NCBI GenBank assembly: GCA_015493585.1
Contig: WGCW01000105.1
Coordinates: 1 to 40,477 of the forward strand
Length of the DNA stretch: 40,477 bases
Reading direction: 5' to 3'
From: Acidobacteriota bacterium
GTDB lineage: Bacteria; Acidobacteriota; Thermoanaerobaculia; Thermoanaerobaculales; Sulfomarinibacteraceae
The notes under the pieces were generated by a model, which saw only the letters and a list, made by a program, of their open reading frames with translations, was not told the DNA's origin and searched no databases. The first letter of the stretch is position 1. The number at the start of each line of letters is the position of its first letter. Below are positions 19,273 to 37,017 of the stretch, one piece after another. The translations under genes and the position numbers were made by a program.

Positions 19273-19332
19273 ATGCCTGAGAGAGAGTCAATCGGGAAAA
19301 GGGTGCCAGTCGTTTCGGATGTGGAAGCATGA
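19273..19332 (+). CDS. Possible 19-residue leader ORF upstream of aprB
   Basis: ATG 19273 is preceded by GAGGAGGTG, one of the best ribosome sites in the window, and encodes MPERESIGKRVPVVSDVEA. Its stop overlaps (ATGA) an ATG at 19329 that opens a frame running without a stop into aprB. It could be a leader peptide or the residue of an older gene. No protein family is recognisable. Confidence 0.3.
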   Translation: MPERESIGKRVPVVSDVEA

Positions 19333-19475
19333 CGCCGCCACCACCTGTTTCAAGCGCTGCAAGACAAAGGCGTACGAAACTGCCGTTTGCCATCAGTTTC
19401 AACGTGGCGGCACGCAACCGGAGCGGCTCGGGCGTCATTCATGAGTGGCCCAATGAACAGGGTTTGGAGGTGTGC

Positions 19476-19925: not shown

Positions 19926-21839
19926 ATGGAGGAAATCAAAACCGTCAGTGTTGATACGGATCTGTTGATTCTCGGCGGTGGTATGGCGGCGTGCGGCGCC
20001 GCCACGGAAGCCGCCTACTGGGCCAAAAAGAACGGCCTCAAGGTGACCATGGTTGACAAGGCCGTCGTGGACCGCTCGGGTGCGGTCGCCATGGGCCTTT
20101 CCGCGATCAACCAGTACGTGGGCCTCAAGGACGGGTGCAATACCGTCCGGGACTACGTCAACTACGTCCGGAACGATTTGATGGGGGTCACTCGCGAGGA
20201 TCTCGTCGCCAACATCGCCCGCCACGTCGATTCCACGGTGCACCTGTTCGAAAAGTGGGGTCTGCCGATCTGGAAAGATGAGGAGGGGAACTACGTTCAT
20301 GAGGGCCGCTGGCAGCTCATGATCAACGGTGAATCGTACAAGGTCATCGTGGCGGAGGCTGCCAAGAACGCCATCGGACCGGAAAACGTCTATGAGCGCG
20401 TGTTCATCACTGGACCGATCATGGATGGCAATAGGTGTGCGGGCGCATACGGCTTTTCCGTTCGCGACAATACGTTCTACGTCTTCCGCGCAAAGGCCGT
20501 CGTTGTGGCGATGGGCGGAGCGGTTCACGTATTCAAGCCAAGGTCCTCCGGCGAGGGCCAAGGGCGTGCGTGGTATCCGCCCTGGAATGCCGGTGCCTCA
20601 ACCTACTTCACCCTCAAGGCCGGTGCCGAGCTGACCTGTCAGGAGGTCCGGTTCATTCCCGTCCGCTTCAAGGATGCCTACGGTCCCGTAGGTGCCTGGT
20701 TCCTGCTCTTCAAGTCTCGGGCGACCAATGCCTTCGGCGGCGAGTACATGCAGGAACGGCGGGACGAGCTGTGCAACTGGGAACCGTACGGCCACGTGAA
20801 GCCGGTCCCGGCGAATCTCAGGAACTACCTGATGATGCTTGACGTCATGGAGGGAAAGGGGCCGATCTACATGCGTACCGAGGAGGCGATCGGCAAGCTT
20901 GCGGAGAAGTACAAGGACGATCCGAAGGCGTACAAGAAGAAGATGAAGGAGCTCGAAGGTGAAGCGTGGGAGGACTTCCTCGACATGACGATCTCCCAGG
21001 CTATCCTGTGGGCTGCCACGAACACCGCCCCTGAGGAAAAGCCATCGGAGATCGCGGCTGCGGAGCCCTACTTCATCGGCTCGCACTCAGGTGCCTCGGG
21101 TGCATGGGTCAGCGGTCCCGCCGACCTCGCGCCGCCTGAGTATTTCTGGGGCTACGAGAACATGTCGACGGTCAAGGGGCTCTTCTGCGCCGGTGACGCC
21201 TCTGGCGCCTCGTCTCATAAGTTCTCGTCCGGATCGCACACCGAGGGGAGGATCGCCGGTAAGTCGGCGATCCGGTACATCGTTGAGGAGCATCCCGATC
21301 TTCCCGAAGTCAGCGACCAGTTGATCACGCAGCTCAAGGAAGAGGTGTACAAGCCGCTGGTAACCTTCGAGGAGAACAAGCCGTTGACGACGCAGCCGGA
21401 TGTCAATCCGGCCTACATCAGGCCGAAGATGTTCATGCTGCGTCTGCAGAAGATCATGGACGAGTACGCCGGCGGGGTGACAGCCCAGTTCACGACCTCG
21501 AAACCATCGCTGGAGAAAGGACTTGAACTACTGACCTTCCTCAAGGAAGATGCGGACAAGCTTGGTGCCGAGAATCTGCATGAACTGATGCGGTGCTGGG
21601 AGAACATCCACCGCATGTACCAGGCGGAGGCGCACGTCCGATCTGTTCTGTTCCGGGAAGAGACCCGCTGGCCCGGCTACTACTTCAGGGCCGATGTCCC
21701 CAATATGGACGAGGAGAACTGGCACTGCTTTGTCAACTGCCGCGTCGATCCAGAGACCGGCGAGTGGGAGATGATGAAAAAGCCAATCGTTCCTCTGTTC
21801 ACACCGAGCTCGGATTTCGAAAGCACGATTGGAGGCTGA
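19926..21839 (+). CDS. aprA: Adenylylsulfate (APS) reductase, alpha subunit
   Basis: The 637-residue product is the FAD-binding catalytic subunit. The Rossmann motif LILGGGMAACGAATEAAYWA is at residues 14-33, followed by DRSGAVAMGLSAINQYVG, DDP/KK-rich helical segments and the C-terminal YRADVPNMDEENWHCFVNCR pattern shared by dissimilatory AprA proteins. VSGPADLAPPEYFWGYENMS and GDASGASSHKFSSGSHTEGR are conserved substrate/FAD segments. It forms the AprBA heterodimer that reduces APS to sulfite or runs in reverse, with electrons exchanged through the Qmo complex encoded just downstream. GGAGG is five nucleotides before the ATG. A strong hairpin follows the stop. Confidence 0.98.
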   Translation: MEEIKTVSVDTDLLILGGGMAACGAATEAAYWAKKNGLKVTMVDKAVVDRSGAVAMGLSAINQYVGLKDGCNTVRDYVNYVRNDLMGVTREDLVANIARHVDSTVHLFEKWGLPIWKDEEGNYVHEGRWQLMINGESYKVIVAEAAKNAIGPENVYERVFITGPIMDGNRCAGAYGFSVRDNTFYVFRAKAVVVAMGGAVHVFKPRSSGEGQGRAWYPPWNAGASTYFTLKAGAELTCQEVRFIPVRFKDAYGPVGAWFLLFKSRATNAFGGEYMQERRDELCNWEPYGHVKPVPANLRNYLMMLDVMEGKGPIYMRTEEAIGKLAEKYKDDPKAYKKKMKELEGEAWEDFLDMTISQAILWAATNTAPEEKPSEIAAAEPYFIGSHSGASGAWVSGPADLAPPEYFWGYENMSTVKGLFCAGDASGASSHKFSSGSHTEGRIAGKSAIRYIVEEHPDLPEVSDQLITQLKEEVYKPLVTFEENKPLTTQPDVNPAYIRPKMFMLRLQKIMDEYAGGVTAQFTTSKPSLEKGLELLTFLKEDADKLGAENLHELMRCWENIHRMYQAEAHVRSVLFREETRWPGYYFRADVPNMDEENWHCFVNCRVDPETGEWEMMKKPIVPLFTPSSDFESTIGG

Positions 21840-21917: not shown

Positions 21918-22226
21918 ATGGATGATCTGCAATGCCCGCACTGCGGGATGGCGCTCACACCGATTGAGCTTCCCGAGGTCACTGGGTGGAGCTCCCCGTT
22001 CCATCTTGCCTGCATGAATGATGATTGCCCGTATTACCGGGAATCGTGGCGATGGCTCGAACAGCGATTTGGGGTGAAGGCCGGATACCGGTACCGGCTT
22101 GATCCTGAGACGGGGAAGGCCTCACCGCTGCCGGTTTGGTCGCCGACGGCGCTGAAGGATCACATCCTGGATGCCGAGGTCACCCGGCAACGGCTCTCGC
22201 CGGTTCGCGTGAGTACTGCGTCATGA
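21918..22226 (+). CDS. Small zinc-ribbon-like protein
   Basis: The 102-residue product begins MDDLQCPHCGMALTP and has a second Cys set in CMNDDCPYY, giving a four-Cys zinc-ribbon knuckle; the rest includes SWRWLEQRFGVKAGYRYRLD. I do not recognise a named family. Such a protein could bind nucleic acid, or help assemble a metal-containing complex. Its position between aprA and qmoA in an otherwise well-ordered sulfur operon, and its overlap with the next gene (ATGA at 22223-22226), tie it to this pathway. GGAGGTG lies a few bases before ATG 21918. Confidence 0.7.
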   Translation: MDDLQCPHCGMALTPIELPEVTGWSSPFHLACMNDDCPYYRESWRWLEQRFGVKAGYRYRLDPETGKASPLPVWSPTALKDHILDAEVTRQRLSPVRVSTAS

Positions 22227-23023
22227 ACACGGCAGTGGAGACTCCGCACTGCCTGGAGGGGCGGAAAACACTCGGCGAAGACGGTCATTTCCAGTTTCAC
22301 TGCGGACCTGAGCTGGCCTGCTTCAACACCTGTTGCGCTGACATTAACATCATCTTGACACCTCTGGACGTTCTCAGACTGGCGCGTCATCTCCAGATGA
22401 CGACGACACTGTTTCGGGCCCGTCACACGGTCACGCTCCAGACCAAGGATCTCCAGCTTCCCGTTGTGGCCCTGAAGATGGAGGAGTCCGCGGGACATCC
22501 CTGTCCGTTCGTCGGGCCTCATGGGTGCCGCGTGTACGACGAAAGACCCTGGGCGTGCCGGATGTACCCGATCGGGTTGGCGATGCCTCCTGCTCGGGCG
22601 GGCCAGCCACCCGAGCCTCTCTACTTCCTCTTCGAGGACGGCTTCTGCCACGGCCGGGAAGGTGGGACCGATTGGACCGTCGCCCGGTGGCGTCGGGATC
22701 AGGGTGTCATCGAGCGCGATCGCATCGAGAGGGGTTTTCGCAAGCTCGTGACGCACCCCTGGTTCATCGGAGGCCGCAAGCTCGATCCACGCCGGCAAGA
22801 AGTCTTCCTCATGGCGTGTTACGACCTCGACCGGTTCCGGGAGTTCGTCTTTGAATCGTCGTTCTTGAAACGGTTCGAGATCGACCCTGAAGAAGCCGCA
22901 ACCTACGCCAGAGACGACGAGGCCCTCTTGGCCTTTGCATTTCGATGGACCCGTTTTGCGCTGTTTGGAGAACCTACGCTGACGGCACGGCCGATCGGCG
23001 TGGGATCGGGGAGGAAAAGATGA
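22223..23023 (+). CDS. YkgJ-family cysteine-cluster protein
   Basis: The 266-residue product has the metal-chelating layout of the YkgJ/CxxCxxCC family. An N-terminal cluster (FHCGPELACFNTCC) is followed about 75 residues later by HPCPFVGPHGCRVYDERPWA and CRMYPIG. Members are thought to bind zinc or iron; the biochemical role is unknown. It overlaps both neighbours by four nucleotides (ATGA at each junction), so it is translated together with the zinc-ribbon protein and QmoA. The location suggests a job in Fe-S or metal handling for the Apr-Qmo system; this is inference. Confidence 0.8.
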   Translation: MNTAVETPHCLEGRKTLGEDGHFQFHCGPELACFNTCCADINIILTPLDVLRLARHLQMTTTLFRARHTVTLQTKDLQLPVVALKMEESAGHPCPFVGPHGCRVYDERPWACRMYPIGLAMPPARAGQPPEPLYFLFEDGFCHGREGGTDWTVARWRRDQGVIERDRIERGFRKLVTHPWFIGGRKLDPRRQEVFLMACYDLDRFREFVFESSFLKRFEIDPEEAATYARDDEALLAFAFRWTRFALFGEPTLTARPIGVGSGRKR

Positions 23024-24267
23024 GCCAACTTTCCAAGCGGCCGGTGCTCGTGGTTGGCGCCGGAGCCGCAGGGCTGACCGCGGCCCTGGAGATGGCCGAG
23101 ACGGGACGGGAGGTGGTGCTGGTCGAAAAAGAGCCGGTCATCGGTGGGCGTGTCGCCCGTTTCCACCATTATTTTCCCAAGCTCTGCCCGCCGAGCTGTG
23201 GTCTGGAAATCAACACGAGGCGCCTGGAACGGAATCCACGGATTCAGGTGCTGATGAGCACGCGGGTGAAGGCCGCCCGCAGGGACGGAGATCACGGTTG
23301 GACGGTTATGCTCGAGACGGAACCGGAATACGTGACGGACAGATGCACGGCGTGTGGCGCGTGCACGGAGGTCTGCCCCGCCACCTGTTCCGACCGTTTC
23401 AACTTGGGACTGCAGGAGGCGCCGGTCATCCGGCGTCCGTTCCCCCACGCCTGGCCCGAGCGGTTCATTCTCGAGCGGGATGCGTGCGCCCAAGGATGTC
23501 ACGAGTGCGTGGATGCCTGTCCATACGATGCCATCAACCTCGACGCAGCCAGCTCTCTGCAAGAGATGCAGGTGGCGTCCGTTGTCATCGCAACGGGGTG
23601 GCATCCGTATCCGGTCGAGAAACTGCCGGAGCTGGGAGGCGGGCGATTTCCGGACGTCATCAGCAACGTCGAGTTGGAACGGTTCGCCTCGGCGGACGGC
23701 CCGACCGGCGGGGTCATCCTTCGTCCATCGACGGGAACACCCCCGGAAAAAGTCGCCTTCGTCCAGTGTGCCGGCTCGCGCGACATCAAGCATCTGCCGT
23801 ACTGCTCGGGAGTCTGTTGCCTGGCATCGATGAAGCATGCCTTCTACGTCAAGGAGCAGCTTCCGGAGGCCGAGGTGACGATCTTCTACATCGATCGCCG
23901 TGCTCCAGGGCGGAACGAGGACTTTCTCGTTCGCGTGGCCGAGACGAAGGGCGTCCGGTTCGTCAAGGGCAAGGTTGGCAAAGTCGAGGAGCGGGACGGC
24001 ACGCTCGAGGTGACGGCGGAGGACGCTGAGGAGGGGAAGCTCCTGCATGAAACGGCTGACCTGGTCGTTCTGGCGGTGGGCATGGTTCCGGAAAAGGAGG
24101 AGGATCCTTTTGGTTTGCCCAGAGATGACGACGGGTTTGCCGTGAACGATCCGGATCGTGGTCTTTTCGTGGCCGGCGTGGCCCACAGGCCGGCAGACGT
24201 CGCAACGAGCATTCGGGACGCGACGGGTACGTCTGCACGAGCCCTCGCGGTGGGAAGGAGGTCGTGA
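23020..24267 (+). CDS. qmoA: Quinone-interacting membrane-bound oxidoreductase, subunit QmoA
   Basis: The 415-residue product is an HdrA-like flavoprotein. The FAD motif VLVVGAGAAGLTAALEMAET is at residues 9-28, followed by GGRVARFHHYFPKLCPPSCG. Two ferredoxin-type clusters are visible: Cys109, 112, 115, 119 (CTACGACTEVC) and Cys156, 160, 163, 167 (CAQGCHECVDAC). VAFVQCAGSRDIKHLPYCSG is the HdrA-type Cys motif. QmoA with QmoB forms the cytoplasmic part of the complex that exchanges electrons between AprBA and menaquinone. The start overlaps the YkgJ gene with GGAGG four nucleotides upstream; the stop overlaps qmoB. Confidence 0.96.
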   Translation: MSQLSKRPVLVVGAGAAGLTAALEMAETGREVVLVEKEPVIGGRVARFHHYFPKLCPPSCGLEINTRRLERNPRIQVLMSTRVKAARRDGDHGWTVMLETEPEYVTDRCTACGACTEVCPATCSDRFNLGLQEAPVIRRPFPHAWPERFILERDACAQGCHECVDACPYDAINLDAASSLQEMQVASVVIATGWHPYPVEKLPELGGGRFPDVISNVELERFASADGPTGGVILRPSTGTPPEKVAFVQCAGSRDIKHLPYCSGVCCLASMKHAFYVKEQLPEAEVTIFYIDRRAPGRNEDFLVRVAETKGVRFVKGKVGKVEERDGTLEVTAEDAEEGKLLHETADLVVLAVGMVPEKEEDPFGLPRDDDGFAVNDPDRGLFVAGVAHRPADVATSIRDATGTSARALAVGRRS

Positions 24268-26516
24268 TGGAGCGTATCGGCGTCTTTCTCTGTTCAGGTT
24301 GTGGAATCGGCGAGGCGCTGGATCTCGAGGCCGTCAAGCGGATCGCTGAAGAGCTCGGGGCCACGTGCACAATTCATCCATGTCTCTGCTCGGAAGAGGG
24401 AGTGGCTGCGCTTTGCTCCGTCCTCGATGATGGAACGAACGACTCCCTCGTCATTGCCGCCTGCTCTCCGAGGTCGCAGTGCAGGGTGTTTTCGTTTGAC
24501 GCCGAAAAGACCACCGTCGAGCGCGTAGGTCTTCGTGAGCAGGTTGTGTGGAGCCATCCGGCGGGCGACGAGGATACGCAGGCGATGGCAGAGGATCTGG
24601 TCCGGATGAGCATCGCCAGGATGGGAGAGGAAAAGCTCCCGGTCCGTCTCGAAGAGGAGATCGCCGACCCCGTTCTGGTCGTTGGTGGCGGTCTCACCGG
24701 GATGGAAGCGGCTCTGGCTGCGGCCGGCATGGGCCACCCGGTGTTCCTGATCGAGTCCAGCGATCATCTGGGGGGCGCGTTGTCCGGGCTTCCCGAGGTG
24801 TTGCCCGTTGCGCCTCCGTACGATCGTCCGCACCAGTCGATGATCCCGGCTCTCATCGAGCAGGTTGAAAAGAACGATCGCATCCGGGTTCTCCTTTCAA
24901 CGAAGATCAGTTCGATCAAGGGACAACCGGGCCAGTTCGAAATGGACGTCGAGGGGCCTGCTGGCGCAGAACATCTCCTCGCTGGTGCCATCGTTCAGGC
25001 AACCGGCGCGCATCCGTACGATGTCTCGAAGGTTGTTGGGCTTGGCTATGGCTCGTTGCCGGATGTCATCACAGCGGCCGAGCTTGATGCCATGCTGGCC
25101 TCGGGCCGCTTGGCCAGGCCGTCTGACGGGCAGACGCCGAAGCATGTTGCCTTTGTTCAGTGTGCAGGTTCGCGCAACTCCGATCACCTTCCCTACTGTT
25201 CGGGTGAATGCTGCGCAACGACCATGCGGCAGGTTCTGACATTGGGGCGCGACTTTCCGGGCACCGAGGCTTCGGTGCTGTACAGGGATATCCGGACTCC
25301 GGGACAGTTGGAGCACCTCTACCAGGCCGCGCAAGAACAACCCGGAGCGTTCTTCATCCGGGCCACGGTGCGCAGCATCGAGGGGAGCGGTGACGGACGG
25401 ATGTCTGTGGCTCTCGAACAAACACTGTTGCCGGAGCTCACTTCGATTGAGGCGGATCTCGTCGTGCTGGCCACGGGGATGGTTCCAAATTCGGCTGACG
25501 GTGAGGCGATCCGGATGCTTCACGACGCGCAGAATCGTGTTGAGCACGGCGAATCCGACGTTCAGAAAGAGGAGGCGCAGAAGATCGTTGACGAGCTCCG
25601 GGCTCATGAAGGAACGGAGATCCTGAACCTCGAGTACCGGCAAGGTCCCGATCTGCCCGTGCTGGCGTACTCGTTTCCCGACTCGCACTACATCTGCTTC
25701 CCCTACGAGACACGCCGAACCGGGATCTACGCGGCAGGAGCCGTCAGAGCACCGATGGATCCGGCGCAGGCGATGGAAGATGCGTGGGGCGCCGCGCTCA
25801 AGGCGGTGCAGTGTATCGAAGCGGCAAAACGTGGCGAGGCGGTTCACCCGCGTTCGGGGGACATCGGGGTACCGGAGTTCTTCCTGCAACGGTGCACGCA
25901 GTGCAAGCGCTGTACCGAAGAGTGTCCGTTTGGAACGTTGAACGAGGACGAAAAGGGAACACCCGAGCTCAATCCTTTGCGGTGCCGTCACTGTGGGATC
26001 TGCATGGGTGCGTGCCCGGAAAGGATCATCTCCTTCCCGGATTATTCCGTGACCGCCGTGTCGGCGATGATCAAGGCGATCGAAGTGCCAGAGGAGGACG
26101 AGGAAAAGCCGAGGATTCTCGGCCTCTTGTGCGAAAACGACGCCTACCCGGCATTGGATGCGGCGGCGCAACTCGGGAAGAACTGGAACCCGTGGGTCCG
26201 GATCATCCCGGTCAGATGTCTGGGGTCGGTGAACGTCGTCTGGATAGCCGACGCCCTTTCACGCGGAATCGATGGCGTCATTCTCATCGGGTGTAAACAC
26301 GGGGACGACTACCAGTGTCATTACATCCGTGGCTCAGAGCTGGCGACGACCCGATTGGAGAACGTCCAGGAGACGCTGGACCGGCTCGCGCTCGAATCGG
26401 AGCGAATCCGGATCGTTGAGCTTGCGCACGATGAATTTTCGCGGATTCCAACGATCCTCGATGAGTTTGCAGAGACGATCGACGAGCTCGGCCCGAACCC
26501 GTACAAGGGCTTCTGA
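24267..26516 (+). CDS. qmoB: Quinone-interacting membrane-bound oxidoreductase, subunit QmoB
   Basis: The 749-residue product is a second HdrA-like protein with a longer layout: N-terminal CSGCG segment, FAD motif VLVVGGGLTGMEAALAAAGM (about residues 137-156), the CAGSRNSDHLPYCSGECC motif, a double ferredoxin (CTQCKRCTEECPF and CRHCGICMGACPE, about 545-590) and a C-terminal MvhD-like domain (GLLCENDAYPALDAAAQLGK, then GVILIGCKHGDDYQCHYIRG). This is the full QmoB architecture of sulfate reducers, in which the complex may also bifurcate or confurcate electrons. ATG 24267 overlaps the qmoA stop (TGATG) with GGAGG five nucleotides upstream. Confidence 0.96.
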   Translation: MERIGVFLCSGCGIGEALDLEAVKRIAEELGATCTIHPCLCSEEGVAALCSVLDDGTNDSLVIAACSPRSQCRVFSFDAEKTTVERVGLREQVVWSHPAGDEDTQAMAEDLVRMSIARMGEEKLPVRLEEEIADPVLVVGGGLTGMEAALAAAGMGHPVFLIESSDHLGGALSGLPEVLPVAPPYDRPHQSMIPALIEQVEKNDRIRVLLSTKISSIKGQPGQFEMDVEGPAGAEHLLAGAIVQATGAHPYDVSKVVGLGYGSLPDVITAAELDAMLASGRLARPSDGQTPKHVAFVQCAGSRNSDHLPYCSGECCATTMRQVLTLGRDFPGTEASVLYRDIRTPGQLEHLYQAAQEQPGAFFIRATVRSIEGSGDGRMSVALEQTLLPELTSIEADLVVLATGMVPNSADGEAIRMLHDAQNRVEHGESDVQKEEAQKIVDELRAHEGTEILNLEYRQGPDLPVLAYSFPDSHYICFPYETRRTGIYAAGAVRAPMDPAQAMEDAWGAALKAVQCIEAAKRGEAVHPRSGDIGVPEFFLQRCTQCKRCTEECPFGTLNEDEKGTPELNPLRCRHCGICMGACPERIISFPDYSVTAVSAMIKAIEVPEEDEEKPRILGLLCENDAYPALDAAAQLGKNWNPWVRIIPVRCLGSVNVVWIADALSRGIDGVILIGCKHGDDYQCHYIRGSELATTRLENVQETLDRLALESERIRIVELAHDEFSRIPTILDEFAETIDELGPNPYKGF

Positions 26517-26528
26517 GGGAGGCGAGAG

Positions 26529-27638
26529 ATGGCACGTACCAACGTTCTTGCGCCATCGGCCGAGCTTCGCGAAGAGCTCCGGCGCCGGGGTGGCGCATCG
26601 GCACAACGTTGTTTCCAGTGCGCGACCTGTTCGGCCGTGTGCAACCTGGCGCCCGACGGCCAGCCATTCCCCCGGCGGCAAATGTTGATGGCTCAACTCG
26701 GCCTGATCGAATCACTCGCGGCCGACCCCGCCGTGTGGCTTTGCCATAACTGCAACGATTGCACCGTGCGCTGTCCCCGTGATGCCCGCCCGGGCGACAT
26801 CCTTCAAGCGGTTCGATCGATCGTGATCGAACGGCTCGCGATGCCTCACTGGTTTGGATCGATCGTGGCGCATGCACGCTCGACATGGCCTCTGCTGATC
26901 GGTTTACCGTTGGCATTCTGGGTGGTTCTGCTGGGTGTGACCGGACATCTGACAATGCCCGCCCGGGTGGCCAATTACGGGCAGGTGGTACCGCACGTCC
27001 TGATCTACGCCGTGTTCATTCCGGTGAGCCTCTGGGTTCTCTGTGCAGCCTGGATGAGCGGAGTGCGTTTCTGGCACCTTTTAGGATCGGCAGGCCCGCC
27101 GCGCCGGGGCTCATTCATCGGAGCCACATTCTCTACTCTCGGCGAAATTGCCAGCCACCGCCGTTTCGCACTGTGCGAAGCTGCGCACCCGCGCCGCTGG
27201 GGGCACTTCTTCCTCATGTGGGGCTTCATCGGCGCCGCCGTCACGTCCGGGCTCCTGGTGATTGCCCTGTACGGCTTCCACATGGAGATGCCTCTCCCGC
27301 TCGACCATCCGTTCAAGATCCTTGGCAACCTTTCGGCTGTCTTCCTCCTGACGGGCGGAACCATGTTGAGCTTCCAAAGGATCAGGGGAGGCGATGCAAC
27401 CGGTCAAACGACGGCCTTCGACAGCTTCTTCCTTGGCGTGGTCGTGCTTGTGGCCGTGTCCGGGGCGTTGGTCGAGATCGGGCGGTTCTTCTTTTCGGGA
27501 GAGGTCGCCGGGTGGTTGTACATCATGCATCTGACCGGGATCCTGACACTCTTCGTCACGTTTCCCTACTCGAAGTTCGCACACATGGTGTACCGGACGG
27601 AGGCCATGATTCACCAGAAGATGACGGAGGAGGGCTGA
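26529..27638 (+). CDS. qmoC: Quinone-interacting membrane-bound oxidoreductase, subunit QmoC
   Basis: The 369-residue product joins an HdrC-like iron-sulfur domain to a membrane part. Two clusters are visible (CFQCATCSAVC at about residues 31-41, CHNCNDCTVRC at about 75-85). Six membrane helices follow, beginning with LLIGLPLAFWVVLLGVTG and ending with YIMHLTGILTLFVTFPYSKF, with His residues placed as in heme-b-binding subunits. It anchors the complex and delivers electrons to or from menaquinone. A complete, unsplit QmoC is the form found in Gram-negative sulfate reducers and in some sulfur oxidisers. GGGAGG is six nucleotides upstream of the ATG. Confidence 0.96.
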   Translation: MARTNVLAPSAELREELRRRGGASAQRCFQCATCSAVCNLAPDGQPFPRRQMLMAQLGLIESLAADPAVWLCHNCNDCTVRCPRDARPGDILQAVRSIVIERLAMPHWFGSIVAHARSTWPLLIGLPLAFWVVLLGVTGHLTMPARVANYGQVVPHVLIYAVFIPVSLWVLCAAWMSGVRFWHLLGSAGPPRRGSFIGATFSTLGEIASHRRFALCEAAHPRRWGHFFLMWGFIGAAVTSGLLVIALYGFHMEMPLPLDHPFKILGNLSAVFLLTGGTMLSFQRIRGGDATGQTTAFDSFFLGVVVLVAVSGALVEIGRFFFSGEVAGWLYIMHLTGILTLFVTFPYSKFAHMVYRTEAMIHQKMTEEG

Positions 27639-27662: not shown

Positions 27663-27938
27663 ATGAATGTTCCTCGCGTCCAGATGATGGTGATGGCGGC
27701 CGGCGTCTGGTCTGGAGGCCCGCCGTGGGCGACGTTTGTTCGCCTCCTGTATTGGGTCGCCGGTCCGTACGGAGGCAGGTGCCGGTCTCTTCGAGCCGTT
27801 CCTCGTATGCCCATCTGTGACGATGTGGCATTCAGGAGCGGAACGCACGGCCGGCCTCATCTTCCGGTGCCTCACCAGGTCGTCGTGGCTTTGCGTGTAC
27901 TGGCCGGATGCGTGTGTTTGGGAGCGCTTTCCGGATGA
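27663..27938 (+). CDS. Doubtful small ORF between qmoC and the cytochrome-TSUP gene
   Basis: The 91-residue frame has AAGGA upstream of its ATG and ends in a TGA that overlaps the start codons of the next gene, which is what a coupled gene would look like. The sequence (MNVPRVQMMVMAAGVWSGGP and onward) is rich in Trp, Arg and Pro and matches no family I know. It may be real, decayed or accidental. Apart from this frame, the 296-nt gap holds nothing I can support. Confidence 0.28.
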   Translation: MNVPRVQMMVMAAGVWSGGPPWATFVRLLYWVAGPYGGRCRSLRAVPRMPICDDVAFRSGTHGRPHLPVPHQVVVALRVLAGCVCLGALSG

Positions 27939-29872
27939 TGAGCGCATTCGTGATCTCGTTGGTGCTTGCGGGACACGCCGTCACAGCAACTGGTGCACCG
28001 GTCAGTGCCGGTCCATTGGCGGCGGCGCATGCCGGGCTGGCGTGTGAGGCGTGTCATCGGCAGGGACGAACGGCGGTCGGGGTGAGCTGCTCGTCAGCAC
28101 AATGCCATCCCGGAATCCAGAGATCGTTTCGGGCGTCAAAGCATGACAGGGTTCACCTGGCTGGAGGTATCCGTTGCGTGGCGTGCCACGGCGGTCATCC
28201 TGTCAGAACCGGTGCAGCCGCCGCCGCGGCGGCAAGCGGTGGCAGCGCCGAGACGAGGTGCCTGTCGTGTCACGCTGCGGAGCGGTTCATCCAGGGGCCG
28301 GGTTTCAAGCCGCCCGTGCTCGCGGCAACGCCGGAACACAACATTCACGCGGCAGCGCGGAGGCGCGAAACCTGTGCGGCTGCCAGCGTCAGCTGTTTTA
28401 CGTGTCACGGCATCCACGGCACAGCTCCGATTGAGAGCCCGGATTCTCCGGTATGCCGGGCCAGGGTTGCAACGACGTGCGGCTCGTGCCATGCCCCCGA
28501 ACGTGAGGCGTACCTCGCCAGTGTGCACGGCCGTGGTGTCCGTATGGGGATGGAGTCCGCACCGACGTGCGTTTCATGTCACGGGGCGCATGGCGTGCAG
28601 GGAGCGCGGGCCTCTCAGGCTCGGACGGCGCCGGAGCATGTCGTGTATTCCTGCGCCGGGTGTCACGAGGACCCGAAGGTCACGCATGCCACGGGACTTT
28701 CCGGTGATGTCGTGATTGGGTATGAGACATCCGTTCATGGTCTCGCGTACCAATGCGGAATCCACGACGTGGCGACCTGTGTGAGCTGCCACGGGAGCCA
28801 TCGCGTTGTGGCGCCTGACGATCCATCCTCACCCGTCAATCCGACTCATATCAGGGAAACCTGTCGTCACTGCCACGGTGCAGTAACGGGGCGCATGATC
28901 CAGCGCATTGACCACGTTTCCAGGCAGGGAGGTGGGAACCCAATTCATGGGCTCAAGATCTATCTTCCCGTGGCTGGGACGGCGATCAATCCATTGCTGG
29001 CCTCTGGAATTGGTACCCTTGTCGGATTTCTCTCCGGGATTTTTGGCGTTGGTGGTGGGTTCCTGATGACCCCTCTGCTCATCTTCATCGGGATTCCTGC
29101 AGCAGTGGCTGCAGCGACGGACTCGGCCCAGATTACGGCCGGCGCCAGCTCCGGAGCACTATCCCATGCGCGTCTTGGCAATGTGGACTTCAGGATGGGG
29201 CTGGCCATGGCCGCTGGGAGTTTACCGGGAGGATTCCTCGGCGTTGATCTCGTTCACCTTCTGAGAGGCATGGGCGATTTCGACTTCATCCTCAAGCTTC
29301 TGTACGTCCTGCTGCTGGCCTTCACGGGCGGAACGATGCTCGTTGAGGGGTTCCGGGCGTTGAGCAGGCGGCCGGGTGGACACGCGCCAGGAGGTCCGCG
29401 AAAGGTGGGCTGGATGCACCGCCTCCCGTTCCGCATGGATTTTCCCGCATCGGGACTTGAGATCTCGGTGGCCGTTCCGATTCTGGCGGGTGTGAGCGTG
29501 GGGATTCTGGCTGCGTTCCTCGGGGTTGGCGGCGGCTTCATCCTCATGCCGATGATGATTTACATGATCGGTATCCCGACACGGGTTGCGGTCGGAACTG
29601 GCCTGTTTCAAATCATGCTGACATGTGCCTACGTAACGGTGGCACAGGCTGTCAGCAACCACACGGTCGATGTCGTGCTGGCCATGGCCCTTTTCATCGG
29701 CTCGACCATCGGCGCCCAGCTTGGCGTGTTGATCAGCCGGCGGCTCCGGGGTGAGCAGATCCGGCTGTTGTTAGGGATCATCGTGCTCGTCGTCATGGGC
29801 GCGCTGGTGTACCAGCTTGCCGCACATCCAGCCCTGCTGATCCAATTCGCGCACTCGGGAGGAGGCTCGTAA
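27935..29872 (+). CDS. Multiheme cytochrome c fused to a TauE/SafE (TSUP) permease
   Basis: The 645-residue product has two parts in one uninterrupted frame. After a signal peptide (MSAFVISLVLAGHAVTATGA), residues 37-314 hold nine CXXCH heme sites (CEACH, CVACH, CLSCH, CFTCH, CGSCH, CVSCH twice, CAGCH, CRHCH) and one CSSAQCH (CX4CH, as in cytochromes c3), so up to ten hemes. From residue 351 a TSUP transporter begins: GFLSGIFGVGGGFLMTPLLI in the first half and AAFLGVGGGFILMPMMIYMI in the second, with about eight helices. TSUP proteins export sulfite, sulfoacetate or take up related anions. I infer a periplasmic redox domain tied to sulfur-anion transport. ATG 27935 (or 27938) is chosen over 27908 for the signal peptide and GGGAG upstream. 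It overlaps the next gene (TAATG). Confidence 0.9.
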   Translation: MMSAFVISLVLAGHAVTATGAPVSAGPLAAAHAGLACEACHRQGRTAVGVSCSSAQCHPGIQRSFRASKHDRVHLAGGIRCVACHGGHPVRTGAAAAAAASGGSAETRCLSCHAAERFIQGPGFKPPVLAATPEHNIHAAARRRETCAAASVSCFTCHGIHGTAPIESPDSPVCRARVATTCGSCHAPEREAYLASVHGRGVRMGMESAPTCVSCHGAHGVQGARASQARTAPEHVVYSCAGCHEDPKVTHATGLSGDVVIGYETSVHGLAYQCGIHDVATCVSCHGSHRVVAPDDPSSPVNPTHIRETCRHCHGAVTGRMIQRIDHVSRQGGGNPIHGLKIYLPVAGTAINPLLASGIGTLVGFLSGIFGVGGGFLMTPLLIFIGIPAAVAAATDSAQITAGASSGALSHARLGNVDFRMGLAMAAGSLPGGFLGVDLVHLLRGMGDFDFILKLLYVLLLAFTGGTMLVEGFRALSRRPGGHAPGGPRKVGWMHRLPFRMDFPASGLEISVAVPILAGVSVGILAAFLGVGGGFILMPMMIYMIGIPTRVAVGTGLFQIMLTCAYVTVAQAVSNHTVDVVLAMALFIGSTIGAQLGVLISRRLRGEQIRLLLGIIVLVVMGALVYQLAAHPALLIQFAHSGGGS

Positions 29873-30699
29873 TGCGGCAGCATCTCAGGAATACCGGTTC
29901 GGCCGTCCTGGCGTTGCTGGCCGTCGTTACGGTATGCACGGCGCAGGAGGCGAACCCCCTGCTGCGGGTCGACGTCCGCCGGGTGCAGATCTCACTCGGC
30001 TTTGCCGGCCAACAGATTCTGATCTGTGGTCAGGTTCCGCCGGGCACCAATCAGGTGGTTACGGTGATCGAAGCTCCCCCCGCCGGAGAAGTCCGGCTGA
30101 TGCGCAAGGGAAGGAGAGGGCCGTTTTGGCTCGGCGTCGCGCAATACGCCGTGGGCAACATTCCGGCGCTTTATAAAGTGAGCATCAGCTGCCCCGGCGG
30201 CAATGTTGTGCGGCCGTGTCCCGATCAAAGCATCCTTGCGTCGGTCAACCGCCGCCTCGCGTTGGATGCGCTCGTCGTGGGACCACAGGCGATCATCAGG
30301 CGGGCGAACGTGAGGGTCCTCCGGGGCACATGGTCTGTGAAGGATCGTGCCCGGCTCTTCGATGGTCTGTGGGAGCTTGAGGCATCCCAAGAGTTGTACT
30401 CGATCGATCCAAACGGAATCCACCTGACCAAAGATGGACGATACTTTTGCAAGTCAGTGATTCCAGCGCATGCACCGGAAGCGAAATACACGATCACGGC
30501 CTATTTTCTCAACTCGCAATCGCTCCTCGATGCGGCACGCGTTGAGCTGTTTGTCAGCCGTTCAGGAATCGTCGCGATGCTCGCACGGCTGGCGAGGCGG
30601 CACGCCTACATCTATGGAGCGGTCACCGTTCTAATCGCCCTAGCAGCAGGGTGGCTGGTTGGGGTGTTGTTCCACAGGAGGAGGCGTTCACCAGCATGA
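29872..30699 (+). CDS. TIGR02186/PF09608-type periplasmic membrane-anchored protein
   Basis: The 275-residue product has an N-terminal signal peptide (about residues 1-24, AVLALLAVVTVCTA), a beta-rich periplasmic domain (VDVRRVQISLGFAGQQILIC, then VVTVIEAPPAGEVRLMRKGR and GPFWLGVAQYAVGNIPALYK) and a C-terminal helix (AYIYGAVTVLIALAAGWLVG) ending in basic residues. The opening strands and the I-x-I-x-x-x-F-x-G-x-x-I/L pattern fit the TIGR02186 family, which in Alphaproteobacteria is encoded beside TauE/SafE sulfite exporters. Its function is unknown. Here too it directly follows a TSUP gene (start and stop overlap, TAATG, GGGAGGAGG upstream), so the two probably form one complex. Confidence 0.75.
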   Translation: MRQHLRNTGSAVLALLAVVTVCTAQEANPLLRVDVRRVQISLGFAGQQILICGQVPPGTNQVVTVIEAPPAGEVRLMRKGRRGPFWLGVAQYAVGNIPALYKVSISCPGGNVVRPCPDQSILASVNRRLALDALVVGPQAIIRRANVRVLRGTWSVKDRARLFDGLWELEASQELYSIDPNGIHLTKDGRYFCKSVIPAHAPEAKYTITAYFLNSQSLLDAARVELFVSRSGIVAMLARLARRHAYIYGAVTVLIALAAGWLVGVLFHRRRRSPA

Positions 30700-30770: not shown

Positions 30771-32039
30771 ATGAGTCGACTGGTACCACCACACGGGAGC
30801 GCAGAGCTCAAACCGTTGCTCCTCAAAGGCGAGGAGCGCGAACAGGAACGCGGGAGGGCCCAAACCCTCAAGAAGGTGCCGATGACCAGCCGGGAAACGT
30901 CGGATCTCATCATGATGGGTATCGGCGGGTTCACACCGCTCGATGGCTTCATGGGATATGACGACTGGAGGGGTGTGTGCGACGAGTATGCGATGCCTTC
31001 CAAGGATGGCCTGTTCTGGCCGATTCCGATCACGCTCTCGGCATCCCGGAGCCTGGCCGATTCTATCGCCACCGGTGAGGATGTGGCGCTGGTCGATCAG
31101 GAGTCCGGTGAGTTGATGGGTGTCCTGACCGTCGAGGAGAAGTACACGATCGACAAGGAACACGAGTGCCAGCACGTCTTCAAAACGACCGACGAAGAGC
31201 ACCCGGGGGTCAAGAAGGTCATGGCTCAGGCCGAGATCAACCTTGCGGGGCCGGTGAAAGTCCTCTCCGAGTCGTTCTATCCGGAGATGTTTGGCTCGCT
31301 GTACCAGACACCGGCCGAGGCGCGGGCGATCTTCGACGAGCGTGGCTGGAGCACGGTGGCGGCCCTTCAGCTGAGGAACCCCATGCACAACTCGCACGCC
31401 TACCTGGCGAAGGTCGCCATCGAGGTGTGCGATGGCGTCTACATTCACCAGCTTCTCGGCAAGCTCAAGCCTGGAGACATCCCCGCCGAGGTCCGGGTCC
31501 AGTGCATCGAGGCTCTCGTCAACAACTACTTCCGCAAGGAGCGCGTTGTCCAGGGCGGCTATCCGCTGGAGATGCGGTACGCCGGTCCGCGCGAAGCGTT
31601 GTTGCATGCGGTTTTCCGGCAGAACTACGGGTGCAGTCACCTGATCGTCGGCCGGGATCATGCCGGCGTCGGGGATTACTACGGCCCGTTTGACGCGCAC
31701 AAGATCTTCGACGAGATTCCTCACGGCGCGTTGAGGCTCCAGCCGCTCAAGATGGACTGGACCTTCTACTGCTACGACTGCGGCGAGATGGCTTCGATGA
31801 AGACCTGTCCGCACGAGTCGAAGGCCGTCATCGACGAACACGGAAACCACGTTTCCGGATCGAGATTGCTCCTCTCGGGAACGATGTTGCGGAAGATGCT
31901 CTCCGAGGGCAAGCCGGTTCCGAAGGAGTTCTCGAAGCCCGAGGTCGTCGCGATCCTACGAGAGTACTACGCGGGTCTCGAAGAGAAGGTGGAGATCAAG
32001 CTCCACGGAGCCGCCACGGGAGACGTTGTCAGGAAGTAA
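30771..32039 (+). CDS. sat: Sulfate adenylyltransferase (ATP sulfurylase), dissimilatory type
   Basis: The 422-residue product catalyses ATP + sulfate = APS + PPi in the cytoplasm. The active-site motif [13 protein letters not shown] (about residues 200-212) carries the Q-x-R-N and H-x-x-H residues. [20 protein letters not shown] is the second nucleotide-binding motif. [15 protein letters not shown] provides a zinc site seen in homo-oligomeric bacterial and archaeal Sat. No APS-kinase domain is attached, as expected for the dissimilatory enzyme. It is 71 nt beyond the TIGR02186-type gene with GGAG seven nucleotides before the ATG. With AprBA and QmoABC it completes the sulfate-APS-sulfite segment. 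Confidence 0.97.
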
Positions 32040-32896: not shown

Positions 32897-34401
32897 GGAT
32901 CAGCCGCAAGTACTGGCTCCTCCTCCTCGGGTTCCTTCTGCTGCATGCCGTCCTTGCCGCCACGTTGCCGGTGTCTGGTGATGAGGCGTACTACTGGGAT
33001 TGCTCGCGCCACGTCGCCTGGAGTTACTTCGATCAGCCGCCGCTGGTCATCTGGGCGATGGTACCTTTCCGGCTCGTGCTCGGTGACACACGCCTCGCGG
33101 TGCGCTCACCGGCCCTCCTTTTCAGTTTCCTGCTGGGGCTCTTTCTCCTCGGTCTGATCCGGCGGCTGGGAGGCGGGGAGCGGGAGGCGTCATGGGCCTA
33201 CATCGTGCTTCACGGGATGCCGCTGTTCTTCCTCGGGGCGTTCTACACCTCGACCGACATCGGAATGACGGCGCTCTGGGTGGCTGCCACGTGGGCGGCC
33301 GTTGCGCTCGCGCAGGGGGAGACAAAGGCGTGGTGGGGTTTCGGTGTGGCGATTGGGCTTGGCTTTCTCGCCAAGTTTCCCATTGTGCTGGTGCTGCCAG
33401 CTTTGCTCCCCGTCCTGCTGACTCGCGAGGGACGCCGCCAGCTCCTGACGCTCAGGCCGTACGCCGCCGCAGCGGTGGCCACCGTTTTGACCGCTCCCGT
33501 GTGGATCTGGGGGGCGCGCCACAACTGGGCGAACATCACCTTCCAGCTGGAGGGAAGGCATTCAGTTCACGCGATCGGGTTGAGGTACCTGCTGGAGTTC
33601 ATCGGCGCCAACCTGCTGCTGGCGACGCCGTTTCTGGCGATCGCCATCGCTGTGGCGTGGTGGCGGGGCTGGCACAGGCGGGATCCGGGATGGTTCGCAG
33701 CGCTTGTTGCAGCAGTCGCTCCGTTGGGCGCCTTCGGCCTGGTCGCCCTCCGGGAACGGGTCGGGGCGCACTGGGGCGGCCCCGGTCTCGTCATCGGCAT
33801 CGCCCTCCTTGCGCTCGTGGCGTTCCGGGGAAGGAAGACGCTGGTCGTACTCGGGATGGCGACCGGGCTGTTGCTCTCGGTGCTGGTCGTTGGGATCGCG
33901 CTGATGCCGGAGCGCGTGTGCACGCTGCACTGGTCGTATCGCGGGAGCCCGCACCACATCAATACATCGAAGCTGGCAGCGGCCATCGGCAACCGCGAAA
34001 TTGTCCGGGACCTCGAGGCGAGGCTTGAGCCCGGCGAGCTCGTGGCGTCGGAGAGCTACACGACCGTCCACCTGCTGGCGTTTCTGTCCCGGGGCGCGCT
34101 CCAGACCCGGCTGGCCGATATCAACCATGGAAAGCATGGGCTGGCGTCGCTGTACTGGTACCCGCCGGAAGCTCTGCGCGGGAGGAACGTTCTCTTCGTC
34201 ACGGAGAAAGAGGGGCTCGACGTACCGTTGAGGCATCTGTTCGCAACGGTGCAGGAAGAGGCGCCGATCGTCATCCGGCGCAACGGAAGGGTCATCCGGA
34301 CGCTGAAGGTCTACGCCTGCACCTCTCTGAAGGACCCGGAAGGAAGCTTCACCCGCCTGGCTTCGACCCGAACGGCGCACCGTTTCGCTCCGGCCGGGTG
34401 A
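32893..34401 (+). CDS. ArnT/PMT-like glycosyltransferase (GT39/GT83 family)
   Basis: The 502-residue product is an integral membrane glycosyltransferase of the C fold. The catalytic loop SGDEAYYWDCSRHVAWSYFD followed by QPPLVIW (about residues 27-53) contains the acidic pair and the family's D-x-P-P signature, here with Gln before PP. About ten or more hydrophobic helices follow to residue 350, then a soluble periplasmic tail (about 355-500). It should transfer a sugar from the polyprenyl-phosphate donor, presumably made by the overlapping GT2 gene, to lipid, glycan or protein outside the inner membrane. The acceptor is not known. Start and stop codons of the pair overlap (ATGA). Confidence 0.88.
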   Translation: MRISRKYWLLLLGFLLLHAVLAATLPVSGDEAYYWDCSRHVAWSYFDQPPLVIWAMVPFRLVLGDTRLAVRSPALLFSFLLGLFLLGLIRRLGGGEREASWAYIVLHGMPLFFLGAFYTSTDIGMTALWVAATWAAVALAQGETKAWWGFGVAIGLGFLAKFPIVLVLPALLPVLLTREGRRQLLTLRPYAAAAVATVLTAPVWIWGARHNWANITFQLEGRHSVHAIGLRYLLEFIGANLLLATPFLAIAIAVAWWRGWHRRDPGWFAALVAAVAPLGAFGLVALRERVGAHWGGPGLVIGIALLALVAFRGRKTLVVLGMATGLLLSVLVVGIALMPERVCTLHWSYRGSPHHINTSKLAAAIGNREIVRDLEARLEPGELVASESYTTVHLLAFLSRGALQTRLADINHGKHGLASLYWYPPEALRGRNVLFVTEKEGLDVPLRHLFATVQEEAPIVIRRNGRVIRTLKVYACTSLKDPEGSFTRLASTRTAHRFAPAG

Positions 34402-34408
34402 GCCGTGG

Positions 34409-34414
34409 TATCTT
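34409..34414 (+). promoter_or_regulatory. -10 element immediately before ccmA
   Basis: TATCTT (34409-34414) ends seven nucleotides before ATG 34422. It would start a ccm transcript at or next to the ccmA start codon, just after the end of the glycosyltransferase gene. No good -35 is visible. Confidence 0.4.
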
Positions 34415-34421
34415 CCCGTTC

Positions 34422-35051
34422 ATGGGCGGGGGGATCACGATCGAGTTCGAGGATCTGGCCAAGCGGTTCGATATGCGGGTCGTCTTCCGGAGTGTGTCCG
34501 GGCGCGTCGCCCCCGGTGAAGTCCTGGCGGTGACAGGTCCGAACGGATCGGGGAAGTCGACGCTGGTGACGATCCTGTGCGGTCTCGTGCGGGCGACCCG
34601 GGGACGGGTCCTGTACCGTGAGGGGAGCGGTGAGATCCCCCGGGAAAGCTGGCGCGATCACCTCGGGATCGTCGCACCGGCGATGAGCCTGTACGAGGAG
34701 CTCGACGCGCTGGAGAACCTGCGCTTCTTCGCGCTGGTCCGTGGTGTGGACGATGCGGAGACACGGTGCCGGGCGTCGTTGGAGCGGGTTGGGCTCGATC
34801 CGGACCGCACGACGCCGGTTCGAGGTTTTTCGACTGGGATGCATCAGCGGTTGAAAATTGCGCAAGCCGTGCTCCACGATCCCCAGGTTCTGTTCCTCGA
34901 CGAGCCGGGTGCCAACCTCGATCCGGCCGGCCAGGACTGGCTGGAGAAGCTGGTGGCCTCCGAGCGGGACGCGGGCAAGACGATCGTGCTGGCGACGAAC
35001 GATCTCCGGGAGATGGAATGGGGGACGAGCCGTGTGGCGCTATCTGGCTGA
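34422..35051 (+). CDS. ccmA: Heme exporter ATPase CcmA
   Basis: The 209-residue product is a compact ABC ATPase: Walker A GPNGSGKST, the signature region FSTGMHQRLKIAQAV (LSGGQ replaced by FSTGM, as in CcmA-like proteins), and Walker B VLFLDEPGANLDP. Size and neighbours fit CcmA, which with CcmB and CcmC drives release of heme-loaded CcmE. ATG 34422 fits the family's start (ITIEFEDLAKRF); an in-frame GTG at 34398 is an alternative. Neither has a ribosome site. The end overlaps ccmB by 20 nt. Confidence 0.9.
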   Translation: MGGGITIEFEDLAKRFDMRVVFRSVSGRVAPGEVLAVTGPNGSGKSTLVTILCGLVRATRGRVLYREGSGEIPRESWRDHLGIVAPAMSLYEELDALENLRFFALVRGVDDAETRCRASLERVGLDPDRTTPVRGFSTGMHQRLKIAQAVLHDPQVLFLDEPGANLDPAGQDWLEKLVASERDAGKTIVLATNDLREMEWGTSRVALSG

Positions 35052-35712
35052 AGCGGGCGCCGTGTTCGCCAAGGATATGCGGACGGAGCTGCGAACGCGC
35101 GTGGCGTTCAACGCGTTGGGGCTTTTCGCGATCACGACGCTTGCAGCGGTTTCCTACACGATCGGGCCGTACCGGATCGCCGAGGCCGACCGGCCGTACC
35201 TGTTGTCCGCGCTGTTGTGGATCGTCATCTTCTTTGCCGCGATGGCGGGTCTCGACCGCTCGTTCGTCAAGGAGGAGGACTCCCACACGGCGGCGCTCCT
35301 GCGGCTCTCGGCGCGGCCGCTCGTCGTCTGGGGCGGCAAGCTCCTGTTCAACGTGGTCGTGCTCGATCTCCTGATGGTCATTCTCGTGCCGTTGTACGTC
35401 GTGCTGATGGGTTTCGAGGTCCGGTCCATTACCGGTCTGGTCTGGATTCTTCTCGCTGGAGGTTATACCCTGGCAGTGACGACAACGATCGTGGCGGCCA
35501 TCATCGCCCGTGCGTCATCGCGCGGCGCGCTGTTTTCGGTCCTGTCGTTGCCGTTGTTGCTTCCGCTGCTGATCTTCGTGATCCAGGGAACGAGGGCAGT
35601 GGCGGAAGGGTCGGCGGGGGGCGTGATCAGCGCCCTGCGGGCCGTGATCTCCCTGGGAGGCGTCATGACACTGGTTTCGATCGTGCTGTTTCCGGCGGTG
35701 TGGAATGAGTAG
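35032..35712 (+). CDS. ccmB: Heme exporter permease CcmB
   Basis: The 226-residue product has six predicted helices and matches CcmB in size and motifs: AGAVFAKDMRTELRTRVAFN at the start, AGLDRSFVKEEDSHTAALLR in the first cytoplasmic loop, and LPLLLPLLIFVIQGTRAVAE. The start GTG 35032 lies inside the end of ccmA. CcmB forms the membrane channel of CcmABCD in the inner membrane. The stop overlaps ccmC by eight nucleotides. Confidence 0.9.
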   Translation: MWRYLAEAGAVFAKDMRTELRTRVAFNALGLFAITTLAAVSYTIGPYRIAEADRPYLLSALLWIVIFFAAMAGLDRSFVKEEDSHTAALLRLSARPLVVWGGKLLFNVVVLDLLMVILVPLYVVLMGFEVRSITGLVWILLAGGYTLAVTTTIVAAIIARASSRGALFSVLSLPLLLPLLIFVIQGTRAVAEGSAGGVISALRAVISLGGVMTLVSIVLFPAVWNE

Positions 35713-36385
35713 CCGGCGGCCGTTTGCTGAGATCCTCAAGTGGATCCTGTTCGTTTGGATCGGTGTGATCATCTGGGCCGCGTTCTTCTATGCGCCAGCG
35801 GCTGCCGGGTTCAAGGGGCAGTCGAGCCGGATCGTGTTCTTCCACGTCCCCGTGGCGTGGGTGGCGACCCTTGCGTTTTTGGTGTCGTGCGTTGCGTCGA
35901 TCCGCTACCTCAAGACACGTTCCGTGGCCGACGACATCCGCGCTGAGGTCGCGAGCTCGCTCGGCCTGCTCTTCGCCGTGCTCGCGACCGTGACCGGATC
36001 AATCTTTGCGCGGATCATGTGGGGCTCGTACTGGAACTGGGATCCTCGGGAAACCTCGATCACGTTTCTCCTGCTGATCTACGCCGCCTATTTCGCCCTC
36101 CGGGCCGCCGTAGCCGATCCGGAGCGCCGGGCCTCGCTGGCCGCAGTCTATTCGATCCTGGCGTTCGTGACGGTGCCGTTCCTGGTCTTCGTCGTGCCAA
36201 GGATCTACTGGTCGCTGCATCCGGATACCATCATCAATGCGCAGGCGAAGATCAAGATGGGCTCGCACATGTTCGAGGTCCTGATGGGCTCGCTGGTGGG
36301 ATTTTCGGGGCTCTTCGTATGGTTGTACACTGTGGCGTGCCGGATTGAGACGATCCGGCGCCGCCGGCAGCAGGAGGTGCTGTAA
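35705..36385 (+). CDS. ccmC: Heme transport protein CcmC
   Basis: The 226-residue product has six helices and the heme-handling tryptophan-rich (WWD) loop MWGSYWNWDPRETSI at about residues 100-115, flanked by the conserved heme-ligand His residues (FFHVPVAW, about residue 47, and MGSHMFEV, about residue 183). CcmC receives heme and loads it onto CcmE at the periplasmic face. In this protein the Asp is followed by PRETS, the form also found in CcsA-like proteins. It overlaps ccmB by eight nucleotides. Confidence 0.93.
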   Translation: MSSRRPFAEILKWILFVWIGVIIWAAFFYAPAAAGFKGQSSRIVFFHVPVAWVATLAFLVSCVASIRYLKTRSVADDIRAEVASSLGLLFAVLATVTGSIFARIMWGSYWNWDPRETSITFLLLIYAAYFALRAAVADPERRASLAAVYSILAFVTVPFLVFVVPRIYWSLHPDTIINAQAKIKMGSHMFEVLMGSLVGFSGLFVWLYTVACRIETIRRRRQQEVL

Positions 36386-36499
36386 ATGAATGACCTGCTG
36401 GGGATCATGTTGGTGACGCTCATTATCTGGGCCGGGCTGTTCAGTTATCTCTACCGGCTCGACCGGAAGGTCAGACGTCTGGAAAGGGAAGATCTGTGA
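36386..36499 (+). CDS. ccmD: CcmD-like small membrane protein
   Basis: The 37-residue product starts MNDLLGIMLVTLIIWAGLFS, a single transmembrane helix, and then has a charged tail (RLDRKVRRLEREDL). Size, topology and place between ccmC and ccmE fit CcmD, which holds holo-CcmE to CcmC and CcmAB. GGAGG lies eight nucleotides before the ATG, and the stop overlaps the ccmE start (GTGA). Sequence similarity among CcmD proteins is weak, so position carries most of the weight. Confidence 0.78.
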   Translation: MNDLLGIMLVTLIIWAGLFSYLYRLDRKVRRLEREDL

Positions 36500-36906
36500 G
36501 CGATCCGAAGAAACAGCGGAAACTGTGGTACGCCATCGGAGGCGTGCTATTGATCGCGTTCATCGCCTTTGGCGCAACCTCGTTCAAGTCCAACCTCACA
36601 CCGTACGTCTCGTTCGATGCTGCGATGTCCGGCCACCAGAAGGTCCAGGTGGCGGGTGAGCTGGTGCAGGGCTCGTCGGCGTACGTCAAGGATGCCAACG
36701 AGCTGAGCTTCATGATGACGAACAAGAAGGGCGAGCAGATGCGCGTCCTCTACAAGGGTGTCAAGCCGGGGAACTTCGAGGACGCGAAGGAGATCGTCGT
36801 CATCGGGAGCTACCACGACGGCGCCTTTCACGCCACGCAGATGCTCGTTAAGTGTCCCTCCAAGTACCAGGGGCTCGAAGAATCGGGTGCCACGAGCGCT
36901 TCATGA
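36496..36906 (+). CDS. ccmE: Heme chaperone CcmE, CxxxY type
   Basis: The 136-residue product has an N-terminal membrane anchor (LWYAIGGVLLIAFIAFGA) and the OB-fold beta barrel of CcmE (KVQVAGELVQGSSAYVKDAN and DAKEIVVIGSYHDGAFHATQ). At the heme-attachment site the usual H-x-x-x-Y is C-P-S-K-Y, with Cys120 and Tyr124. This CxxxY form is known from archaea and from Desulfovibrio, where Cys replaces His as the covalent heme ligand and the system lacks CcmH. The start GTG overlaps the ccmD stop. Confidence 0.92.
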   Translation: MSDPKKQRKLWYAIGGVLLIAFIAFGATSFKSNLTPYVSFDAAMSGHQKVQVAGELVQGSSAYVKDANELSFMMTNKKGEQMRVLYKGVKPGNFEDAKEIVVIGSYHDGAFHATQMLVKCPSKYQGLEESGATSAS

Positions 36907-36946
36907 CGGCCCGTGGTGTGAGACGAGCCGGTCTGCGCCGGGCGGC

Positions 36947-36975
36947 TTGTTCTTGTAAATCAGAATCGTTATCAT
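36947..36975 (+). promoter_or_regulatory. Promoter upstream of ccmF
   Basis: TTGTTC (36947-36952) and TATCAT (36970-36975) are separated by exactly 17 nt in a locally AT-rich stretch. It lies in the 111-nt gap between ccmE and ccmF and would start transcription near 36982. Confidence 0.6.
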
Positions 36976-36983
36976 TGATCCCG

Positions 36984-37007
36984 ATGCGCGCGTCTGCGTG
37001 CCGGTAA
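36984..37007 (+). CDS. Seven-codon ORF upstream of ccmF
   Basis: ATG 36984 begins eight nucleotides after the -10 hexamer and encodes MRASACR before a TAA. The ccmF ribosome site GGGAGG begins right after the stop. It could be translated as a leaderless regulatory peptide (with a Cys codon) or be accidental. Confidence 0.25.
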   Translation: MRASACR

Positions 37008-37017
37008 GGGAGGGTTG

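Follow-up and report, generated by a model that had tools for sequence, protein, structure and literature searches.

In an Acidobacteriota apr/qmo/sat operon, a single gene encodes a signal peptide, a decaheme cytochrome c domain and a TauE/SafE (TSUP) permease (654 amino acids; positions 27908-29872 of the window, which is the whole 40,477-nucleotide stretch analyzed; the apr, qmo, sat, TIGR02186 and cytochrome c maturation genes given below are, like the fusion, on its forward strand). The fusion is genuine and conserved. We propose, with about even confidence, that it sits in the inner membrane and moves an oxyanion belonging to the APS pathway, works with a TIGR02186 partner and carries a periplasmic ten-heme electron wire. 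Judged from its domains, the protein would be new in how it combines two modules that are each known, and not a new kind of protein. A heme-module-plus-TauE architecture was not found reported in the literature, in agreement with the first-pass annotation, which knew of no characterised protein of this build.

Sulfate reduction begins with the uptake of sulfate, and for most non-model sulfate reducers little is known of the carriers responsible. The gene supplies a candidate carrier with an electron wire and a TIGR02186 partner inside an Acidobacteriota apr/qmo/sat operon. Two questions can be asked together on this fusion, namely what the cargo of the TauE-TIGR02186 pair is and whether an electron carrier controls an anion permease. 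Redox-coupled transport, if true, would make a direct link in sulfate metabolism between the flow of respiratory electrons and the entry or exit of the substrate.

A decaheme cytochrome c and a TSUP permease in one reading frame

The frame first described, 27935-29872, translates into 645 amino acids with zero internal stops. Translation and Pfam searches bore out the earlier reading of one frame in which a signal peptide and ten heme sites (nine CXXCH, one CX4CH) precede a full TSUP permease. Its start is probably farther upstream. An in-frame ATG at 27908 extends the protein to 654 residues with the N-terminus MRVFGSAFRMMSAFVISLVLAG, which places an Arg within the n-region of the signal peptide. 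The n-region needs an Arg and the version starting at 27935 has none, making 27908 the likelier translation start.

The decaheme domain (28013-28924, residues about 27-330 of the protein, P0001) carries the sites CEACH, CSSAQCH (the CX4CH site), CVACH, CLSCH, CFTCH, CGSCH, CVSCH, CAGCH, CVSCH and CRHCH in this order, and the Pfam cytochrome families Cytochrome_C7, Cytochrom_c3_2 and Paired_CXXCH all score above their cut-offs. With ten sites, ten conserved distal-His candidates and a signal-peptide-like N-terminus, it agrees with class III/multiheme cytochromes c. The TSUP permease domain follows at 28949-29854 (residues about 339-640). TauE (PF01925) matches residues 358-622 at E=2.3e-44 with 152.3 bits against a cut-off of 32.6, covering positions 3-235 of the 237 in the profile, and the domain consists of two half-repeats with a GVGGGF motif in each (at 371 and 530), both C-terminal of the heme sites. 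A complete PF01925 domain with two half-repeats is the pattern of the TSUP/TauE-SafE family, which includes Cupriavidus necator TauE and the TSUP-type CysZ of Corynebacterium glutamicum. No TSUP member was found described with a heme domain, whereas the fusion has one.

Among 37 genomes of the host's order, the in-frame fusion occurs in six species of several genera. Four of these, the window's genome (G000), G009, G007 and G005, have ten-heme fusions, and two (G034 and G032) have six-heme fusions. The G009 fusion corresponds to a public record (JAJDNH010000053.1, an Acidobacteria MAG), and a search of public contigs with exact short peptides reached one fusion orthologue. No record in a plasmid collection covered 80% of the fusion protein. 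The assemblies are drafts in many contigs, and a frameshift or assembly join of two genes between 28880 and 28990 had been named as the possible artefact. No such join is supported; since the same in-frame fusion recurs in five other species, the probability of an artefact is negligible.

When 40 TauE domains were placed in a tree, all six permeases from fusions fell into a single clade (support 98/99), for which reason there was probably one fusion event. The six-heme pair is nested inside the ten-heme fusions with moderate support (81/86), and this nesting suggests that the six-heme versions arose by loss of hemes 1-4. In the heme and permease domains alike dN is well under dS, with dS being saturated.

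The fusion gene is followed by a TIGR02186 partner in an apr/qmo/sat operon

Upstream of the fusion gene lie aprB (19329-19916), assigned by its position before aprA and 88-90% identity to the matching frames of related operons and not by a family scan, aprA (19926-21839; TIGR02061, 915 bits), qmoA (22945-24267, an HdrA-like flavoprotein), qmoB (24264-26516, HdrA-like with an FlpD domain) and qmoC (26529-27638; NF038018, 385 bits, cut-off 300). Downstream is the ATP sulfurylase gene sat (30771-32039). The earlier placement of the fusion between qmoABC and sat is right in that qmoABC is upstream and sat downstream, but it overlooked a TIGR02186/PF09608 (Alph_Pro_TM) gene directly between the fusion and sat (29872-30699), whose ATG overlaps the fusion stop codon (TAATG). 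Cytochrome c maturation genes are found farther downstream (34398-39561) in three parts, a CcmA-like ABC ATPase (34398-35051), a CcmC-type gene (35705-36385) and a CcmF-type gene (37015-39561).

In each of the four operons with a ten-heme fusion, the gene between aprA and qmoA (22136-23023 in the window) encodes a CxxCxxCC (PF03692) protein, possibly a Qmo/Apr accessory protein. Ahead of aprB, positions 17900-18721 encode a cytidylate-kinase-like protein (PF13189; weak BON match, PF04972), whose relatives are encoded beside TauE, apr or sat at many loci in Acidobacteriota.

The order aprBA, CxxCxxCC protein, qmoABC and fusion is the same in the four ten-heme operons, which represent four genera. 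TIGR02186 comes next in three of them and then sat in two; the contig of G005 ends after the fusion. Directly 3' of the G005 fusion, at the place expected for TIGR02186, is a second copy of the heme domain (L069:1-645), with seven hemes up to the contig end and 54% identity to the heme domain of the window. In the six-heme genomes TIGR02186 adjoins the fusion and aprA is on a different contig. Co-occurrence with apr, which the first-pass annotation had proposed to look for, holds throughout: aprA is present in all six fusion species (19 of the 37 genomes of the order are aprA-positive), as is dsrA. The fusion or TIGR02186 is found in 10 of the 19 aprA-positive genomes versus none of the 18 others (Fisher p 0.0004, kinship ignored).

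TauE and TIGR02186 also pair without hemes. In other Acidobacteriota families, unfused TauE-TIGR02186 pairs lie near a kinase gene together with sat, apr or qmo, and in Alphaproteobacteria the pair is a two-gene unit away from dissimilatory sulfur genes. The alphaproteobacterial TauE proteins paired with TIGR02186 are 45-50% identical to the fusion permease. These pairs share the gene order of the fusion operon, with the two genes adjoining or overlapping, whereas the heme fusion was met in this clade only, in searches that were not centred on other phyla.

The heme module resembles that of c-b561 membrane cytochromes

The closest relatives of the heme module are mostly proteins of roughly 600-790 amino acids that combine an N-terminal multiheme module with a C-terminal cytochrome b561 domain; PF01292 is present in the eight relatives scanned, the tail-anchored L047 excepted. 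Hemes 2-10 of the fusion are colinear with the last nine hemes of the c-b561 proteins at nearly identical spacing, the 28-30-28-42-28 heme spacing of the c-b561 N-terminal module is present in the fusion, and identity to L050 is 35% over 312 amino acids. The membrane domain also begins at a corresponding distance past the last distal His in both kinds of protein. What differs is the membrane domain itself: the fusion has PF01925 in place of PF01292 and no recognised heme-b domain, so it falls outside the c-b561 membrane cytochromes. The best description is a known c-b561 heme module in which the b561 domain was exchanged for a permease. Geobacter CbcL, laid out as a multiheme cytochrome c followed by a cytochrome b, is a functional parallel to the c-b561 relatives, likened to them by layout and not by a comparison of homology. 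It is an inner-membrane quinol dehydrogenase (PMC7096707, PMC8227773).

P0001 contains ten non-motif His residues (32, 70, 88, 138, 161, 198, 219, 268, 289 and 327). An alignment with 18 relatives shows them conserved in the ten-heme fusions (His-138 in three of the four) and, position by position, in 17-18 of these relatives. Such a module resembles an electron-transfer wire made up wholly of bis-His hemes, and because each heme has a conserved His candidate, electron transfer is favoured over catalysis on the anion. The hemes had earlier been suggested to oxidise or reduce the anion as it passes, which would make the protein a sulfite exporter whose on-board cytochrome converts sulfite (or thiosulfate/tetrathionate) in transit. 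The operon does produce or consume sulfite, and structures of the octaheme HAO family can be superposed on the heme part with a Z of about 8 (VIA), a value that may reflect mere common heme packing. In HAO and the octaheme sulfite or tetrathionate reductases, the catalytic heme lacks a distal His ligand. The sequence of the fusion offers a conserved candidate for all ten hemes, a feature common to the c-b561 heme modules; hence no open catalytic heme is visible in it. Given this, and the homology of the module to an electron-transfer module, it is very unlikely that the hemes convert the anion.

Elsewhere in the window's genome, near dsrAB, a membrane subunit resembling HmcC/NrfD is likewise fused to a class III cytochrome, in this case with six hemes (L098:11478-13304, contig C132). 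Heme modules have been joined to membrane subunits more than once in this genome, in the TauE fusion and in the HmcC/NrfD-like protein.

The permease half is the better conserved part

Identity among the fusions is 64-74% in the permease half versus 35-50% in the heme half, and the GVGGGF pair is retained in all six. This bears on a reading in which the permease domain has become a plain membrane anchor and the decaheme cytochrome works for Qmo or other respiratory complexes. Another membrane domain usually holds the heme module, and the operon includes qmoABC, as an anchor reading would have it, but a spent permease is hard to reconcile with its being the better conserved half and with the retention of both the GVGGGF motifs and the TIGR02186 partner; we regard this reading as distinctly unlikely.

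AlphaFold2 run on a 66-row alignment, which included permease-only and heme-only relatives, gave a model with a pLDDT of 81, a pTM of 0.69 and similar permease halves; from the six fusions alone the pLDDT was 38. In the model each permease half opens with a helix that leads through the GVGGG turn into a short helix, and three long helices follow. If the helix-turn-short helix element is re-entrant, a periplasmic heme domain would make loops 478-512 and 602-605 cytoplasmic, which fits the positive-inside rule because both are positively charged. The best fold match was BacA/UppP, an inverted-repeat membrane protein (VIA, Z 12.7, 230 residues), within the chance range for helical bundles. Foldseek returned nothing at E <= 0.001, and PDB chains searched by sequence with the permease half gave zero matches at E <= 1.

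The preferred reading, a working permease with an attached electron wire, leads to the following scheme. The permease would move an APS-pathway oxyanion, either sulfate inward or sulfite outward, together with its TIGR02186 partner, while the hemes would exchange electrons with periplasmic partners and leave the anion unconverted. In the c-b561 relatives, the cytochrome b presumably ties the heme module to the quinone pool. As the permease lacks a recognised heme-b domain, electron traffic into and out of the fusion would be confined to the periplasmic side, and the wire lacks an evident quinone connection. The likeliest purpose would be to keep an electron carrier beside the site of anion entry or exit and the neighbouring Qmo/Apr system, which the wire perhaps serves or senses.

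A tighter coupling can also be envisaged, in which the permease is gated or powered according to how the decaheme is charged, which would match anion flux to the periplasmic electron supply. The two parts are covalently fused in all six species, a linker of only about 20 residues runs from the last distal His (His-327) to the membrane, and the six-heme versions retain the membrane-proximal hemes. Against this, no precedent for redox-gated or redox-driven transport of this kind was found in the literature and the unfused sister permeases presumably function without hemes; such gating is unlikely.

Sulfate uptake as a candidate function

Substrates of TSUP proteins are not predictable from sequence; the family analyzed by Marietou et al. 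(2018) has a sulfate importer among its members, and some sulfate reducers have no candidate sulfate carriers other than TSUP proteins (PMC5840216). The first-pass annotation had called the permease sulfite-type. Sulfite is the default that comes with the family name, and the distribution of other sulfate permeases fits sulfate uptake at least as well.

SulP is absent from the window's genome (99.6% complete), from G005 and from G032, and from six of the six aprA-negative relatives tested. An uninterrupted SulP is present in seven of the nine aprA-positive genomes that lack the TauE-TIGR02186 pair. Elsewhere SulP is found only with an insertion in G007 and G009 and as fragments in G034, and G006 and G020 have SulP as well as the pair. 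The contrast between SulP and the pair is weak, with a Fisher p of 0.01-0.07 with kinship ignored, from few related genomes and with SulP, out of SulP, CysP and SulT, as the family covered. The pattern gives a hint that sulfate uptake has passed from SulP to the pair. Because several carriers of the pair, the window's genome included, are without SulP, sulfate uptake appears at least as likely as sulfite export. As the cargo assignment, sulfate uptake comes close to an even chance on this evidence and sulfite or another reduced anion is a considerable possibility, with the remainder falling to something else.

DASS symporters were also considered as discriminating sulfate carriers and rejected, as the apr-negative relatives have them too. 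Several of these genomes have SulP-STAS-like permeases (L165, L166 and L173) whose transporter domain is interrupted midway by an insertion of >100 residues.

Published work on other Acidobacteriota with a DsrL-like protein has considered the Dsr pathway in both directions. The window's genome likewise encodes a DsrL-like protein, together with DsrK and DsrJ, and DsrE gave a match below the cut-off only. A search for DsrD returned no match, with the positive control likewise silent. Directly 3' of dsrB is a gene for an 82-residue protein (L098:8621-8869) that does not match DsrD (PF08679); this protein may take the place of DsrD or have nothing to do with it.
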